From a virus: 26,211 nucleotides of DNA. The notes under the pieces are model-generated. The model ran no database searches and was not told the origin of the DNA. It saw nothing but the letters and a program-made list of their open reading frames with translations. Location of the stretch: positions 1 through 26,211 of IMG/VR virus record IMGVR_UViG_3300005264_000201, one strand, 5' to 3'. Positions 5,626-26,125 of this stretch are shown here, one piece after another; the first letter of the stretch is position 1, and each line of letters opens with the position of its first letter. The position numbers and the translations under genes are program-made.

Positions 5626-6054
5626 ATGAAAAAATCAAAGTTTATAGGCCAAAGATTAACAAACAGTGCTGGACTAAACCTTCCTAGTTTTGTTTCTGAT
5701 GGTAGACGATTATTAAATTCAAATGGAGATATCGATCCTCAAAGTGCTGGTTACCAGTATATAATTGATACGTTATCTTATATAAGATCAAATGTAATTG
5801 AACAGAAATTCTATGAGATTGCAATAGCAGACTTTATCCCTGTTGATGTGGGCGAAGGTGCATGGATGGAAGATATTATCCAGAATGTAACTTACTCAAC
5901 TGGTGGTAGTTTCTTTGAAGGTGATATTGATACTCAAACTGAGACTAATAGAATTGCACAAGTTGGTGCTGGATTAGATAAAATCTCAATGGCAGTTAAG
6001 ACTTGGGCTAAAGGTACCGCATCCAGACCAGACAATCACAGGTCTACTGAATGA
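5626..6054 (+). CDS. Major capsid protein (DUF2184), N-terminal fragment of a broken gene
   Basis: This frame encodes the start of a HK97-fold major capsid protein of the DUF2184 type: residues 1-131 match the family up to the conserved AVKTWAKG segment. Directly afterwards the frame reads unrelated residues and stops at TGA. The family normally continues here with about 50 residues before a ...GLLNDP... motif; that motif appears in the next frame from 6002. The gene therefore seems to have lost an internal piece of about 150 bases and shifted frame. A ribosome site (GGGGAGAT) precedes the ATG. Whether this is a true mutation or a sequence artefact cannot be decided here. Confidence 0.75.
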   Translation: MKKSKFIGQRLTNSAGLNLPSFVSDGRRLLNSNGDIDPQSAGYQYIIDTLSYIRSNVIEQKFYEIAIADFIPVDVGEGAWMEDIIQNVTYSTGGSFFEGDIDTQTETNRIAQVGAGLDKISMAVKTWAKGTASRPDNHRSTE

Positions 6055-6094: not shown

Positions 6095-6556
6095 TTGAGC
6101 TCAATGAGTTCTACCGAGTTTACAGCATTTGTTGCAGGGTTATTACCAGCGTATTTTGCTAACAGTAATGATACTGCTTTGCCAGATACATTTGTTATTC
6201 CTAACAGTGACTATCTTGGTCTTGGTGTTCCTTATTCTGAAAGTTTCCCTAACATTTCTAAGTTACAGTATATGTTAGATTTCTTACAGAAAATGACAGG
6301 TAATGCTAATTTCCAGATCCTTGGTCTATCTTATGCTCAAAGCAATAGAAACACAGATCGTGGAGTAGGTAAGAATAGATATACTCTTTATAAAAATGAT
6401 GCAGAAACAATGAAGATGGCAATTCCTGTTGACTTCACAATGTTAGAAGCTGATACAACTAACAAGATTAACTGGCAACAACCAGCATACGGTCAATATT
6501 CCGGTGTTTTAGTTAGTAGAAAAAGAGAAGTATTATACTTAGATGAAACAGCCTAA
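6095..6556 (+). CDS. Major capsid protein (DUF2184), C-terminal fragment
   Basis: The second half of the broken capsid gene. Family-like coding in this frame starts well before the ATG at 6095: from 6002 it reads LGLK...DQTITGLLNDPEVTINTTLIGKS, the normal middle of a DUF2184 protein, and ends with a typical LVSRKREVLYLDETA. The ATG at 6095 has no ribosome site and is most likely an internal methionine. Together with the 5626-6054 fragment this gives about 310 codons, somewhat short for the family because of the missing internal piece. A terminator follows, as expected after a highly expressed capsid gene. Confidence 0.75.
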   Translation: MSSMSSTEFTAFVAGLLPAYFANSNDTALPDTFVIPNSDYLGLGVPYSESFPNISKLQYMLDFLQKMTGNANFQILGLSYAQSNRNTDRGVGKNRYTLYKNDAETMKMAIPVDFTMLEADTTNKINWQQPAYGQYSGVLVSRKREVLYLDETA

Positions 6557-11472: not shown

Positions 11473-12864
11473 ATGACAATAGTAGATTTATTTGCAAGAA
11501 TAGGATTGAAAACAGACGAAGCAAAGGCTAAAAGCTTTTCTAGGTCTATGAATACTCTAAAGAATGGAATGGTAGTTGCTACTGCTACTGCTGTTGGAGT
11601 ATCTGCAGCAATTAATAAAATCACTAATGATGCCATGAAAATGGGTGTAGCTTTTAAGCAATTTGAAGTTGAGACAGGAGCCTCTGCCCAAGAACTGCAG
11701 AAATGGCAATCAGTTGTTGAACAAACCAACCAACCTATAGAAAGTGTAACTTCTGCTATTAAAGCACTTGCGACTAGCCGAGAAAAAATAAAATTAGGAC
11801 AAGGTGATATATCTGGCTATCAATTATTAGGGATAGATCCTAATAAAGATCCGTTTGAGATACTGGAAGATTTAAGAATCAAAACTCAAGGATTAAGCCA
11901 AGCTATGAAAAAAGATATTTTATCTAAATTTGGTGTAGGCTCTGGGATGATACAAGCTCTTGAAATGACTAATGAAGAATTTAATAAGCTCTCAGCAAAC
12001 GCTTTTATAATACAACCATCAGCAATAACTACTTTAAATCAAGCTAAGGCAAGTATGGATCTTGCTGGAAGGGCTATTGATTATATGAAATCTCAAATAG
12101 CCGTGGGATTATCTCCACAAATAGTATTGCTTACAAAAAGAATAACGGCTTTTATAAAAAAGAATGAAGATGGAATAATTAAAGGCTTTCAGCTTAGTTT
12201 TAAATGGGTGTCAAAATTTACAGATGCTATTATAAATACGGTTTCATGGATTGATACTCTAGTTACGAAAACAATCGGATGGAAAAACGGAATTATTGGT
12301 GTTATGGGTGTTTTAGCCTTATTGAACACTCAATTAATATTATCTCCTATAGGGTTAATGACCGCAGGGTTATTGCTTCTAATAGCTGTTATGGATGATA
12401 TAAAAGGTTATTCAGAAGGGAAAAACTCCTTGTTTGGTAAAATGATGGATGGAATGGCAGGATTTAAAACTTTTATCGATGGGATAATCAATGCTATAAA
12501 GATAATAAAAGATTTTATGGATGGAGGGGACCTTGATTTTGTAACTGGTGCTGCCGATGTAGCTAGAGAAGAAGGTAAAACTGTAAAAGCTAATACTTTA
12601 GATTTTTGGGGAGCAGGGGTAGGAACAGATAGATTTTATAATGCAGCACCTAGGTGGATGAAAACTGATTGGTATAAACAGGTTTTTAGTGGTGGTGGGT
12701 TTGGTAATTTGACAGGAGAAGAATCTAGAAATATGAATACTACAAATAATGTTACTATAACCGTAAATGGAACAGCCGATGCAGAGGATACAGCTATAGC
12801 AACAATGAAATTGTTTGAGAAGAACCTATCTGGAACATCTGCACAAATATCGAGGGACGAATAA
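11473..12864 (+). CDS. Tail tape measure protein
   Basis: The 463-residue protein follows the chaperones and precedes the baseplate genes. It opens with DLFARIGLKTDEAKAKSFSRSMNTLKNGMVVATATAVGVSAAINKITNDAMKMG, a tape-measure-type start, and carries hydrophobic segments near 275-310 (GIIGVMGVLALLNTQLILSP, MTAGLLLLIAVM), as expected for a protein that enters the host membrane on infection. It is short for a tape measure; at about 0.15 nm per residue it would set a tail of roughly 70 nm. The C-terminus ends with TNNVTITVNGTADAEDTA, often seen near the baseplate end. The ribosome site AGAGGT supports the start. Confidence 0.82.
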   Translation: MTIVDLFARIGLKTDEAKAKSFSRSMNTLKNGMVVATATAVGVSAAINKITNDAMKMGVAFKQFEVETGASAQELQKWQSVVEQTNQPIESVTSAIKALATSREKIKLGQGDISGYQLLGIDPNKDPFEILEDLRIKTQGLSQAMKKDILSKFGVGSGMIQALEMTNEEFNKLSANAFIIQPSAITTLNQAKASMDLAGRAIDYMKSQIAVGLSPQIVLLTKRITAFIKKNEDGIIKGFQLSFKWVSKFTDAIINTVSWIDTLVTKTIGWKNGIIGVMGVLALLNTQLILSPIGLMTAGLLLLIAVMDDIKGYSEGKNSLFGKMMDGMAGFKTFIDGIINAIKIIKDFMDGGDLDFVTGAADVAREEGKTVKANTLDFWGAGVGTDRFYNAAPRWMKTDWYKQVFSGGGFGNLTGEESRNMNTTNNVTITVNGTADAEDTAIATMKLFEKNLSGTSAQISRDE

Positions 12865-13634
12865 TGCTAGATACTAAAATATCTCCAATTACAGATTTAA
12901 CAGGAAAAACTCTATTAACAGATTCAGAAGGAAAAAAATTATCGATATTTGTTTTTGATATACCAGAAACTGAAAACATAGAACTATCTTCTGAAATATC
13001 AGATCATTATACTGAAAATAATAGTTTTATTAGTGACCATGAAATAAGAAAACCTATACAAATAAATCTAAGTGGATTGATTGGTGAATTAACGTTTAAA
13101 GAAAAAGATGGATTAGAAAGTGTTCTCCAGGATATGGACAATAGATTAGAAACTGTTGATGCGTATCTTGGAGATTTTACCCCTGGAGCAATCCAGGATA
13201 TACAACGTACTGTAAATTATGCCGAAACAGGAATAGCAGCCGCAAACAGTTTTATAGATAGAGGACAAAATGTAATAGGGTTTTTTGATGGGGAATCAGT
13301 AGAAGAAACAGCTCAACAAAAAGCTTTTAATAATTTATACCTGTTGTGGAAAACATCGGTTTTATTGGATGTTCAAACTCCTTGGAAGTTGTTTAAAAAT
13401 ATGAGAATAATAAATATAGGAATATCTCAAAATCAAGACACAGAAGAGATCACTGATATAAATATAACATTAAAGGAATTAAGATTTGCAAGTTTACAAA
13501 CAACAGATTTCAGTAAAGATATAAACGCTCCTAGGGTGGATGTTCAAGTTGCACCTACGGAGGACATAGGAAAGATTAAAGGAGTAAGTAATAATACGTT
13601 ATTATTTGATATAATTGAGGGGATAAAGGGTTAA
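12864..13634 (+). CDS. Dit-like tail/baseplate protein
   Basis: The 256-residue protein has an N-terminal part of the type seen in Dit-like phage tail proteins: FVFDIPETENIELSSEISDHYTENNSFISDHEIRKPIQINLSGLIGEL, where H-E-I-R-K-P-I-x-I-x-L-S-G is the recognisable piece. It sits between the tape measure and the plug and hub genes, as expected of the protein starting the tail tube on the baseplate. The C-terminal part (SVLLDVQTPWKLFKNMRIINIGISQNQDTEEITDINITLKELRFA) is also conserved in this kind of protein. Overlaps on both sides support coupled translation. Confidence 0.7.
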   Translation: MLDTKISPITDLTGKTLLTDSEGKKLSIFVFDIPETENIELSSEISDHYTENNSFISDHEIRKPIQINLSGLIGELTFKEKDGLESVLQDMDNRLETVDAYLGDFTPGAIQDIQRTVNYAETGIAAANSFIDRGQNVIGFFDGESVEETAQQKAFNNLYLLWKTSVLLDVQTPWKLFKNMRIINIGISQNQDTEEITDINITLKELRFASLQTTDFSKDINAPRVDVQVAPTEDIGKIKGVSNNTLLFDIIEGIKG

Positions 13635-16485: not shown

Positions 16486-17094
16486 ATGCCAGATATTTTT
16501 GATAAAAACGGATTACAAACAAAAACTCTTACCGAACTTCGAGATGAATTGATTGCTAAATATAAAACGATATATGGTGATGATATAAATGTAGATCAAA
16601 ATTCTCCCGATGGTCAGATAATAAATATTGAAGCTCAAATCGGAGAAGATCTTCGGGAAATATTACAGCAAGTAAATGCCGGGTTTGATCCAGATCAAGC
16701 ATCTGGCAGAACCCTGGACCAAAGAATTGCAATAAACGGAATAACTAGAAATGAAGGAACGTATACTTTTCAAGATATAGAAGTAACTACAGATAGAGCT
16801 TTAAATCTTGTCGGTTTAGATGCCCAAGCCAACGAATTAAATCCGATAGTTTCCGGTCTTTATACCGTAAAAGATGATGCAGGGACATTGTTTTATTTAT
16901 TATTTTCTCAAGTAATCGCTGGAGCAACTACAACAGCTTTTAATTTTAGGGCTGCTGATATTGGACAGGTAGAAGTTACCCCAAACACTATAACTACAGC
17001 GGAGACAGTTATAGCAGGAGTAACAAATATAAATAATCCATCCGGTGCAATATATCTTTGGCGTTATCGTTCACTTTATAAGCAAAACCTGTGA
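16486..17094 (+). CDS. Baseplate J-like protein, N-terminal fragment of a rearranged gene
   Basis: Residues 1-185 match the baseplate J (Mu gp47 type) family: GLQTKTLTELRDELIAKYKTIYGDDINVDQNSPDGQIINI, then GRTLDQRIAINGITRNEGTYT and AETVIAGVTNINNPSGAI. The family continues after NPSGA with an E-T/S-D-x-x-L-R-x-R region, but here the sequence turns into unrelated residues (YLWRYRSLYKQNL) and stops at TGA 17092. The rest of the gene, including a C-terminal domain, appears from 17152 in the same frame, with a second stop, TAG, at 17134. About 100 residues of the normal protein are missing. Confidence 0.75.
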   Translation: MPDIFDKNGLQTKTLTELRDELIAKYKTIYGDDINVDQNSPDGQIINIEAQIGEDLREILQQVNAGFDPDQASGRTLDQRIAINGITRNEGTYTFQDIEVTTDRALNLVGLDAQANELNPIVSGLYTVKDDAGTLFYLLFSQVIAGATTTAFNFRAADIGQVEVTPNTITTAETVIAGVTNINNPSGAIYLWRYRSLYKQNL

Positions 17095-17151
17095 AACAAA
17101 ATCTATCAAAATCTATCGCGACTTTCGCTGGCGTAGGACTATTTCCGATTC
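17057..17151 (+). other. Inverted remnant within the baseplate J gene
   Basis: On the plus strand this stretch encodes nothing related and contains stops in the gene frame. On the minus strand, reading left from 17157, it gives SHESEIVLRQRKSR, which fits the expected continuation of baseplate J after NPSGA (E-S/T-D/E-x-x-L-R-x-R-x-x-S). The right end falls in the palindrome TCATGA (17150-17155), which joins it to the true C-terminal part. It looks like an inverted piece of the same gene with the neighbouring sequence lost. Confidence 0.5.
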
Positions 17152-17502
17152 ATGAGAGGTCAACAATCAGTAGAAGTTCAGAGAACAAACAATAGAACGT
17201 TTACCGCAAAATATGATATCCCTGGAAATGAAGATTTATATATAAGATTTTCATTACAATCTGATGGGTTTGTAATAGACGAAGAAAATATAAAATTACA
17301 AATTGTAGAAAACGTTTTGTGGGATATAGGAAAATCAGCAGATGCTTCAACTATAATTAGCTTTGTAAAGTCTATTAGTTCAGATTATATAATAACAGGA
17401 ATGAATGTATCTAAAGATGGATTGTCATGGCTAGAAATTGAACAAATTAATGAGCCACAAAATAGATTTCTAAATAATATATCAAGGATAACTATATTAT
17501 GA
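17152..17502 (+). CDS. Baseplate J-like protein, C-terminal fragment
   Basis: This frame reads MRGQQSVEVQRTNNRTFTAKYDIPG and then NEDLYIRFSLQSDGF, the C-terminal domain that follows the conserved M-K-G-x-Q segment of baseplate J proteins. The ATG is therefore most likely not a start codon: it is the methionine of that segment, and no ribosome site precedes it. It is in frame with the 16486-17094 fragment but separated by about 95 bases of foreign-looking sequence with two stops. It ends in an ATGA overlap with the next gene, so the downstream coupling is intact. Confidence 0.72.
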   Translation: MRGQQSVEVQRTNNRTFTAKYDIPGNEDLYIRFSLQSDGFVIDEENIKLQIVENVLWDIGKSADASTIISFVKSISSDYIITGMNVSKDGLSWLEIEQINEPQNRFLNNISRITIL

Positions 17503-18236: not shown

Positions 18237-19937
18237 GTGAGTAAAGTAATAAGAGCTGTACAGAAGATTTTTGGAACAACAGCCGGAACAGGAGAAATTG
18301 GAGTCATAGGGTCTAAATCTAGTGGAATTGCTGCAACATCTAAAGATATAAAAAACATTCAAAGTGATCCTAATTATCTTTTAGGTTTTAACGGCATAAC
18401 TTCTGACCAAGGAACAAGCCGTTTGCCTTATACTGAAGATATGAATGGTTTATTATATATGACAACATCACAGATAAAATACTTATTCCAAAGTGGAATT
18501 CCTAAATGGGATGAAGAAGAGGATTATTATGATGAAGAATCATTTGTTTTTGATGAAGGGATATTGTTTAAATCTTTAGAGGGGACAGACTTATCTCCGA
18601 ACATAGGGAATAAACCTTATGATAATTTAGACAAATGGATTCCGGTATCTTTTAAAGAGTTGACCGTAACAGGGAATTATACCATAGGTGGAGAATCAAC
18701 TATTAATGTAAATACTGGAGCAGCAACGATTACCCTTCCAAATCTAAATAACGGAGAAAAAAAGTTAATAAGAAAAATTTCTTTAACTTCTGGATCTATC
18801 GCAGTTGTATTACCAGGAGGGCATGTTTTTACAGATGGCAGTACCTCTTTATTATTAACAGAATACTTAGACGCGGTAAAAATAGAAAAAATAACAGGGG
18901 CAACCTGGACAAAAGGGGATTTAATACAAACAGAAAAAGCTTCTAAGGGTTTGATTATTGGAGACTCCACAATTGCAGATCATGCTGGGCAACAAGGAAT
19001 AGATTTCTTCCTCAAAAGGCAATCGGACACGCTTATAGGCACAGTTATTGTTAATCAAGCCGTTCCTGGGGATACTATAGCTCAACAAAAAACAATATAT
19101 TTAGCAGATTCAGATAAAGCAACTTATGATTGGATAATTGTTCAAGTAGGTCTTAATGATTTAGACCCAGCAGAAGCATCAGCAGTAGCAATTGCTAGGC
19201 TACAAGACTTAATAGACACAATAAACTTAAATAAAAAGCCAACTGCAGTGGTTATTATTTCTGGTTTAATCTATTGCAAGCAAAGATTACTAAATATATA
19301 TGGAACTGTAGATGGTTTAGTTGCTGTACAAAAGTTGATTGATATACAGATTGCAATTCTCGGAGGTGGATTCCATGCAATAACAGGTGTTCATTATAGA
19401 AATTGGGCTCATGTTCCTATTCTTAGTGATGATACACAGACCTTATATGATTATTACTTAGACCCAAATAAAGATGGTATCCATCCAAATGATAGAGGTC
19501 GAAATATAATAGCTCAAACATGGAGAAAAACGTTAAACAGATTAGGATATTTAAAAAATATATCAGACGAAATAATACCAAGAGCACCAGTAAGTGGAAG
19601 ATATACCCCGACTTATTACACTGTAACAGGAGCAACAATAGAAACCCCGCTTAAATCAAATTGGATGCGAGTCGGGAACTTTGTGCAAGTAAGTGGAAGT
19701 GTCCAAATTACTATAACTAATAATCTTGCAGTAACCTTTGAAATGGATTGTCCAGTTCTTCCTAATTTCATAGATAACCAAATGGCTGGGGGATCGGCTG
19801 TATCAAATGCCTCTCAATCATCTCTTGCAATTTATGCCTCAACAGTAACAAATAGAGTTGTATTTTCTGGGGTGAATCTAGCAGATGCCGGGACTTTAAC
19901 CTTTCTTTATAGTTTCGGGTATTACTTAGAAGATTAA
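18237..19937 (+). CDS. Tail fibre / receptor-binding protein with SGNH hydrolase domain
   Basis: The 566-residue protein has three parts. About 1-230: tail-attachment and beta-rich stalk, with Trp/Tyr-rich GIPKWDEEEDYYDEESFVFDEG and a carbohydrate-module-like segment. About 237-440: an SGNH/GDSL hydrolase with block I IIGDSTI (S244), block II near G278 (AVPGDT), block III VGLND (305-308) and block V DGIHPND (D413, H416). About 451-566: a beta-rich C-terminal domain beginning YTPTYYTVTGATIE. The enzyme probably removes acyl or acetyl groups from host surface polysaccharide. The start is GTG with a perfect AGGAGG 5 bases upstream. Neither the substrate nor the host can be seen from the sequence. 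Confidence 0.85.
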   Translation: MSKVIRAVQKIFGTTAGTGEIGVIGSKSSGIAATSKDIKNIQSDPNYLLGFNGITSDQGTSRLPYTEDMNGLLYMTTSQIKYLFQSGIPKWDEEEDYYDEESFVFDEGILFKSLEGTDLSPNIGNKPYDNLDKWIPVSFKELTVTGNYTIGGESTINVNTGAATITLPNLNNGEKKLIRKISLTSGSIAVVLPGGHVFTDGSTSLLLTEYLDAVKIEKITGATWTKGDLIQTEKASKGLIIGDSTIADHAGQQGIDFFLKRQSDTLIGTVIVNQAVPGDTIAQQKTIYLADSDKATYDWIIVQVGLNDLDPAEASAVAIARLQDLIDTINLNKKPTAVVIISGLIYCKQRLLNIYGTVDGLVAVQKLIDIQIAILGGGFHAITGVHYRNWAHVPILSDDTQTLYDYYLDPNKDGIHPNDRGRNIIAQTWRKTLNRLGYLKNISDEIIPRAPVSGRYTPTYYTVTGATIETPLKSNWMRVGNFVQVSGSVQITITNNLAVTFEMDCPVLPNFIDNQMAGGSAVSNASQSSLAIYASTVTNRVVFSGVNLADAGTLTFLYSFGYYLED

Positions 19938-24839: not shown

Positions 24840-25168
24840 TTTTAATATCAAATAAAGGATATAAAATTTACAAAAGGCACAAGTCTACTCATGTTATTGC
24901 ATTGCCAAATGAATATGCAATATTTAAGAATTACCAAAAAGGTCAGTATCTCTACTGTTTTTTAGGAGAAATAGATAAAAAAGAATATTTATGTTATTCA
25001 GATATAGAAATAGCTGGAACAAAAAAAGTAATGATAGTAAGTGTTAATGAAAATCAATTTAGATTAACAGTTCCAGCAATTTACTATAATTGGTTGAATA
25101 ATAGTGACGATTGTAGTTATAAAGCTTATCATAACAAAAGAGGACTACTGGTCTTTAAAAAGGTATAA
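24824..25168 (+). CDS. Protein with AbrB/SpoVT-like C-terminal part
   Basis: The 114-residue protein has an N-terminal beta-type region (NLVLISNKGYKIYKRHKSTHVIALPNEYAIFKN) and ends NENQFRLTVPAIYYNWLNNSDDCSYKAYHNKRGLLVFKKV. The R-L-T-V-P-A-x-x-x-x-W-L pattern followed by strands is reminiscent of AbrB-like DNA-binding swapped-hairpin domains. Whether it binds DNA is not shown. It begins 16 bases inside the HNH gene, with GGAG before the ATG. Confidence 0.6.
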   Translation: MFSNLVLISNKGYKIYKRHKSTHVIALPNEYAIFKNYQKGQYLYCFLGEIDKKEYLCYSDIEIAGTKKVMIVSVNENQFRLTVPAIYYNWLNNSDDCSYKAYHNKRGLLVFKKV

Positions 25169-25178
25169 GGAGGAAAAA

Positions 25179-25652
25179 TTGAGTAGAGCAAATAAGTGGG
25201 GAATATATGCTTGCAAGGATGGTGTAGTCGTAGCAACTTATGTTTCCAAGAGTTATGGTAATTGTATCATAATAGAACATAAGGATGGGTACAGGACTTT
25301 ATACGGCCATAATAGCAAGCTATTGGTAGGTGATGGACAAGAAGTAAAAAAAGGGGATTTTATATCAATAATGGGTGATACAGGGCATGGAATCCCAAAA
25401 CCTAATAAACACTTCCATTTAGGTTTAATACCACCTAATAGACCGTTAACAAATCTAATAGATAACTGTATTAATCCAGTTCCATGGTTAACTAAAGGAG
25501 GTTGCTATCCTTGTAACACTCTGGTAAGTAATGGATTTCAAGAAGATTATGGTTCATACTTCCATGAAGGGATAGATTTCTCTGGATTAGAAAAAAATGT
25601 TATAAAAGATTGGCAATTAGGAATAAAAGCCGATACAAGGAGATATTATTAA
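25179..25652 (+). CDS. M23-type peptidase with permuted zinc motifs (endolysin candidate)
   Basis: The start is TTG at 25179 with a perfect AAGGAGG 5 bases upstream, giving 157 residues. Residues 9-83 follow the second part of an M23 (LytM) domain: IYACKDGVVV, YGNCIIIEHKDGYRTLYGH (H44), VKKGDFISIMGDTG and KHFHLGL (78-80 H-x-H). The usual first motif H-x-x-x-D is missing at the N-terminus but appears at the C-terminus as YFHEGIDFSG (H129, D133). All three zinc ligands are thus present in circularly permuted order. M23 enzymes cut peptide cross-bridges in peptidoglycan; together with the following holin this suggests lysis. No signal peptide is seen. Confidence 0.75.
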   Translation: MSRANKWGIYACKDGVVVATYVSKSYGNCIIIEHKDGYRTLYGHNSKLLVGDGQEVKKGDFISIMGDTGHGIPKPNKHFHLGLIPPNRPLTNLIDNCINPVPWLTKGGCYPCNTLVSNGFQEDYGSYFHEGIDFSGLEKNVIKDWQLGIKADTRRYY

Positions 25653-26125
25653 TGAGTTTTTTAAGTGATATGGTTGGATCTGGAGTAGAAGGGATTTTAA
25701 GTGGAGCATCTGGAATAATTGATCAGTTTGTTACCGATCCAGATAAGAAGTTAGAGGCTGGAATAAAACTAAAAGAATTAGAATTAGACAAGAAGGTTCT
25801 TGAATTAGATACCAAAAAAGCAGAATTTGAAAATACAGCTTCAGCAAGAGAAATGTATGAAAAGGATTCTAGTTTACAGAAAATATTTGCTATAGTATTT
25901 TTAGCTGGATATTTAGCCTTAACAGCTTTCATAATATTTTTTATATTCAGTAAAGTTGCAGGAAATACAATGGAAAATTGGAAAGTTGCATTAATAAGTA
26001 CAATTTTTACAGCAATGTCCTCAAAGGTGAATACTATTTGTGATTTCTTATTTGGAGGATCACAAGCTGGAGATAAGTCTGCTAAAAATATAAGTGATAT
26101 AATGAATAAAAGTACAGCGAAGTAA
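25652..26125 (+). CDS. Holin of the 3TM type
   Basis: The 157-residue protein has an amphipathic, charged N-terminal half (KLEAGIKLKELELDKKVLELDTKKAEFENTASAREMYEKDSS) followed by a long hydrophobic segment at about 77-98 and a second at about 109-123, ending in a short polar tail. This arrangement is that of 3TM phage holins. The ATG at 25652 has an AAGGAG site 9 bases upstream and overlaps the M23 stop by one base, so lysis enzyme and holin are co-translated. A longer reading frame start (25610) lies inside the M23 gene and lacks a ribosome site. Confidence 0.75.
   Translation: MSFLSDMVGSGVEGILSGASGIIDQFVTDPDKKLEAGIKLKELELDKKVLELDTKKAEFENTASAREMYEKDSSLQKIFAIVFLAGYLALTAFIIFFIFSKVAGNTMENWKVALISTIFTAMSSKVNTICDFLFGGSQAGDKSAKNISDIMNKSTAK

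Follow-up and report, generated by a model that had tools for sequence, protein, structure and literature searches.

A naturally circularly permuted M23 peptidase, a predicted phage endolysin

The M23 peptidases, cell-wall enzymes that are also candidate lysins, form a very large family and have been studied intensively. In peptidase family M23B (PF01551; LytM, lysostaphin, StM23 9gy1, ShyA), an H-x3-D segment precedes the core strands with their LYGH and HxH motifs. Xu et al. 2011 reportedly described circularly permuted enzymes in a different group, NlpC/P60. NlpC/P60 enzymes are also peptidoglycan peptidases, and in their natural permuted (YaeF/LRAT-like) branch the catalytic residues are swapped in order (PMC6403190); they are, however, papain-like cysteine peptidases, with a fold and chemistry unrelated to those of zinc-dependent M23. 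The M23 review from which we take the roles of the motifs, as zinc ligands and catalytic His (PMC9662197), does not mention permutation, and our literature search found no permuted M23, in agreement with the preliminary description of the locus presented here, which knew of no described permuted M23 lysin. The “circularly permuted endopeptidases” of one preprint were considered as M23 candidates and rejected, since the term there denotes NlpC/P60. With no permuted M23 in the literature searched, such a protein is seemingly new, and the permuted NlpC/P60 enzymes are its known analogue.

The gene in question occupies positions 25179-25652 of the + strand, in the last part of the window (the whole stretch of DNA analysed, a 26,211-base IMG/VR virus record), and encodes 157 residues. 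As read from the sequence, a Shine-Dalgarno element, AAGGAGG (25167-25173), is followed by a 5-nt spacer and a TTG start at 25179; the stop codon is TAA (25650-25652). Translation confirms the motif order first noticed in the preliminary description: LYGH (H44), then HFH (H78, H80), and only then HEGID (H129, D133). By its Pfam match and by alignment to canonical cores, the M23 core, residues 9-104 (25203-25490), represents the later part of a canonical domain and ends in INPVPWL. It holds His44 of LYGH (25308-25310), the equivalent of LytM His260 and predicted to be catalytic, and the HxH motif H78-F79-H80 (25410-25418), in which, by analogy, His78 would be catalytic and His80 a zinc ligand (PMC9662197). 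A short join, TKGGC (residues 105-109; 25491-25505), placed by alignment with locus L007 and canonical M23 domains, links the old C-terminus to the old N-terminus; it is followed by the moved N-terminal segment, residues 110-137 (25506-25589), YPCNTLVSNGFQEDYGSYFHEGIDFSGL, which includes the H-x3-D zinc motif H129-E-G-I-D133 (25563-25577). Compared with M23B, in which the H-x3-D segment comes before the core rather than after it, the protein also has an insertion before HxH (GIPKPNKHFH) and a C-terminal tail of 20 residues (138-157; 25590-25649). This tail lies outside canonical M23, where it has no counterpart; in the one homologue that we found (see below) it is 50% identical, with W145 and RYY kept. 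Of the cysteines, C97, C109 and C112 (25467-25514) are common to both proteins, unlike C12 and C29; C109 and C112 form a CYPC motif at the join of the old ends, and the three kept cysteines might act as a disulfide staple in the periplasm.

Is the C-terminal piece truly the M23 segment missing from the front? PF01551 matches only residues 9-83, equivalent to model positions 16-87 of 96, at E 4e-20 and 72.2 bits (cut-off 28.7 bits); the first 15 positions of the profile, which include H-x3-D, are absent from the N-terminus of the protein. We built our own HMMs (full, N-segment and core) from 71 canonical M23 domains of viral loci. A separate alignment that mixed core and N-segment rows was left out, as MAFFT set HLH rows under HEGID. 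The N-segment HMM scores the C-terminal segment (residues ~109-134) at 13.8 bits, whereas 3000 shufflings of these residues gave at most 8.1, and the match is wider than HEGID, with YPC..LVS.GF upstream resembling the canonical P..itS.FG. Piece by piece, the closest sequences are canonical phage M23 proteins (from Bacillus phage Eldridge, and HEGIDFSG proteins among loci L150-L159) and a canonical M23 protein from a genome, L065; in all of these, unlike in the permuted protein, H-x3-D lies before the core. L065 reads LVTSEFGEDRGDYLHQGIDFDG, with its core beginning five residues on. In the part of L065 that was compared, residues 7-28 (numbered within that part) are 59% identical to our residues 115-136 over 22 aa, and residues 34-94 are 39% identical to our residues 9-69 over 61 aa; both pieces thus align with their order swapped and a gap of five residues in L065. 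The preliminary description had noted that joining the C-terminus to the N-terminus restores the canonical order of motifs; when residues 105-140 are joined in silico to residues 6-104, the Pfam score rises from 72.2 to 79.7 bits and the match extends over model positions 2-87, while our canonical HMM goes from 63.1 to 75.3 bits as one single domain; the homologue, rotated likewise, rises from 60.5 to 65.9 bits in Pfam. The merging of two partial M23 matches upon rotation is the signature of circular permutation. The protein has the hallmarks of the family, namely a significant profile match, H-x3-D, and HxH with a His ~30 residues upstream of it; because H-x3-D comes last instead of preceding the core and HxH, and because the Pfam match begins at model position 16, we class it as a permuted variant and not as an ordinary M23 member. 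By its permuted order, the homology of both pieces to canonical M23, and the conservation and selection described below, the 157-aa protein is a natural, conserved, circularly permuted M23.

How does the rotated chain fold? AlphaFold2 models computed from alignments of 5 and 12 sequences contain the core strands, with 10-residue block means of up to 93; the core strands of the first model match LytM-type structures (best 9gy1, E 9.5e-07, TM 0.51/0.60), and core identity to the best solved M23 members is 32-35%. In the two runs, pLDDT is below 50 for residues 110-157 and 92-157, respectively, the alignments being very shallow; the second model has a short strand at 132-135 (IDFS), at low confidence. 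The monomer models thus left the C-terminal segment undocked, as would be expected if the zinc site were completed between chains, with this segment docking on the core of another molecule in a domain-swapped dimer or oligomer; such swapping can occur in permuted chains whose join is short. The tiny alignment, however, accounts for the AlphaFold2 result, and the short join and clean breakpoints suit ordinary permutation, so we consider such a swap unlikely.

Further support for the permuted order comes from a second phage. IMG/VR scans, following the suggestion that relatives with the same order be sought, returned a single homologue, in record IMGVR_UViG_3300043219_000190 (53,301 bases); its protein is 62% identical end to end, has the same rotated order, keeps H44, H78, H80, H129 and D133 (5/5), and ends two residues past the end of the window protein. 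It begins at its own ATG, with GGAG upstream, in an open frame of just 164 codons, which leaves no room for a hidden N-terminal H-x3-D. The two records otherwise share one weak protein match (24%, a tail protein) and must therefore represent very different phages with the same lysin; the recurrence of the rotated gene in an unrelated phage makes the rotation a real, conserved variant. The two proteins agree best in the moved segment (80% identity), and dN/dS (Nei-Gojobori), read with synonymous sites near saturation, is 0.21 for the whole gene and 0.09 for residues 113-137. Together, the conserved homologue and the selection exclude misassembly and recent decay, and the swapped alignment with L065, with its five-residue join, agrees with the original view that this is a real permuted protein.

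The preliminary description had also offered an alternative, in which the HEGID segment begins a second, truncated M23 domain; in that case decay would have left only this beginning, and the first domain would be an inactive core without H-x3-D. Permuted proteins commonly arise when a tandem duplication is trimmed at its two ends, so an ancestor quite plausibly had this form. For the gene as it now stands, a lost second domain fails, since in an unrelated phage the homologue stops at nearly the identical position, and since a holin-like gene comes immediately after the window gene. The conserved homologue and the selection on the gene count against it as well: the moved segment is more constrained than the rest, all five ligand and catalytic residues are kept, and there is no further M23 core in the window or in the record of the homologue. 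A six-frame scan of the window with the full, N-segment and core HMMs found no further M23 core or N-segment, and no second M23 was found in the record of the homologue. We therefore regard a truncated second domain as very improbable.

The permuted form is rare in the collections scanned, at the sensitivity of these searches, and two members are known in this analysis. Scans of IMG/VR with the whole protein, its C-terminal part and two alignments gave the one homologue and no further permuted member; tblastn against phages gave matches covering at most 66% of the window protein, with none covering 80%, and the best-covering phage matches of the window protein and of the homologue, each checked individually, are canonical. 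No permuted member appeared among the five loci of a GTDB contig scan (0/5) or in 398 genomes of one phylum. HEGIDFSG occurs at 10 loci in IMG/VR: one is the permuted homologue, two are not M23, and seven are canonical phage M23 proteins with the identical motif just before the core. The permuted gene is absent from twenty records, mostly tail-sheath kin, except for the homologue’s own; one of these, G007, has a canonical M23 within a baseplate-type protein. Rhodococcus plasmid matches covering 88% were considered as permuted and rejected, as they are canonical M23 with a linker. All other M23 loci examined in detail (phage, genome, Rhodococcus plasmid, HEGIDFSG) are canonical.

What would the protein do? 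A gene for a holin-like membrane protein follows on the + strand at 25652-26125 (PHROG 3427 holin, E 1.3e-5; Pfam Phage_holin_3_6, 0.0087; searched as 25655-26125), its ATG overlapping the stop codon of the M23 gene (TAATG), which makes the latter most likely the endolysin. The protein starts directly in the M23 core, with no room for a signal peptide; from this and from the holin-like neighbour, we infer a holin-dependent endolysin that would cut peptide cross-links. In the other phage, the homologue has small membrane proteins for neighbours, and one of these weakly matches an Rz-like spanin. By motif analogy, H129, D133 and H80 should be the zinc ligands and H44 and H78 the water-activating residues (PMC9662197); the conserved Y124 and Y127, a few residues ahead of H129, could supply the oxyanion Tyr (cf. 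LytM Tyr204). In this reading, the old N- and C-termini of the M23 domain were joined through the short link at about residues 105-109, while the loop that connects the H-x3-D segment with the first core strand was opened to give the new ends. By the most likely mechanism, the folded-back chain would bring H129 and D133, at its C-terminal end, up to H80, and the three would hold a single zinc ion; once the co-expressed holin has passed the enzyme across the inner membrane, H44 and H78 would activate water for cleavage of the peptide cross-links of peptidoglycan. Activity at a single zinc site is thus predicted, and the role in lysis is suggested by gene position. Overall, we put the probability that the gene encodes a natural circularly permuted M23 (LytM-type) zinc endopeptidase serving as a phage endolysin at about 0.8.

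Some members of the M23 family are activators and not enzymes, so the permuted fold might bind or regulate without cleaving peptidoglycan, in the manner of EnvC/NlpD-type LytM domains. Unlike degenerate LytM activators, however, both permuted members keep H44, H78, H80, H129 and D133, and the gene adjoins a holin-like gene; a non-cleaving role is accordingly a most improbable one.

Elsewhere on the contig, the portal and sheath proteins are nearest to a Bdellovibrio phage and the terminase to Bacteroides phages, all below 50% identity. Two of its other genes, in contrast to the permuted M23 gene, carry apparent deletions. A major-capsid-like gene is in two pieces (5626-6054 and 6095-6556), which correspond to one ORF of 352-359 aa in L009, L012 and L013; about 66 residues of the relatives are reduced to about 76 bases, seemingly because a deletion broke the frame or the assembly went wrong. 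A baseplate-type gene (16486-17502) is also split, both pieces matching one ORF of 395-406 aa in the same three loci, with about 90 residues’ worth reduced to about 100 bases. The two splits imply that the contig comes from a defective phage or has collapsed regions. That a canonical M23 gene was rotated by misassembly in this contig is scarcely credible, being refuted by an independent contig whose protein has the same order at 62% identity; in both contigs a ribosome-binding site precedes the start, and the following gene overlaps or abuts the stop. Elsewhere in the window, a tail-region protein (18237-19937) has a GDSL lipase/acylhydrolase domain (Pfam E 4.8e-10) and possibly acts on a polysaccharide or lipid of the host surface; the C-terminal part of a Dit-like tail protein (12864-13634) matches phrog_1517 (E 1.1e-7), whose endolysin label is probably a mislabel of a tail-protein family.

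Why would a phage keep a rotated lysin? One speculative answer, to which we give little weight, is that the rotation is functional, as opposed to neutral. With two of its three zinc ligands in the part made last, the lysin would stay inactive until its C-terminus docks, possibly to be locked by C97/C109/C112 in the periplasm, which would build in a delay of lysis; if true, this would be a delay by C-terminal docking that canonical M23 enzymes lack. More generally, a natural and conserved rotation indicates that new ends next to the metal site are compatible with the M23 fold, and the permuted protein marks a point where the domain can be opened. It also exposes a blind spot of profile searches, in which a permuted M23 is scored as a truncated core and could be dismissed as dead. 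Finally, the permuted M23 adds a metallopeptidase case beside the known permuted NlpC/P60 enzymes.
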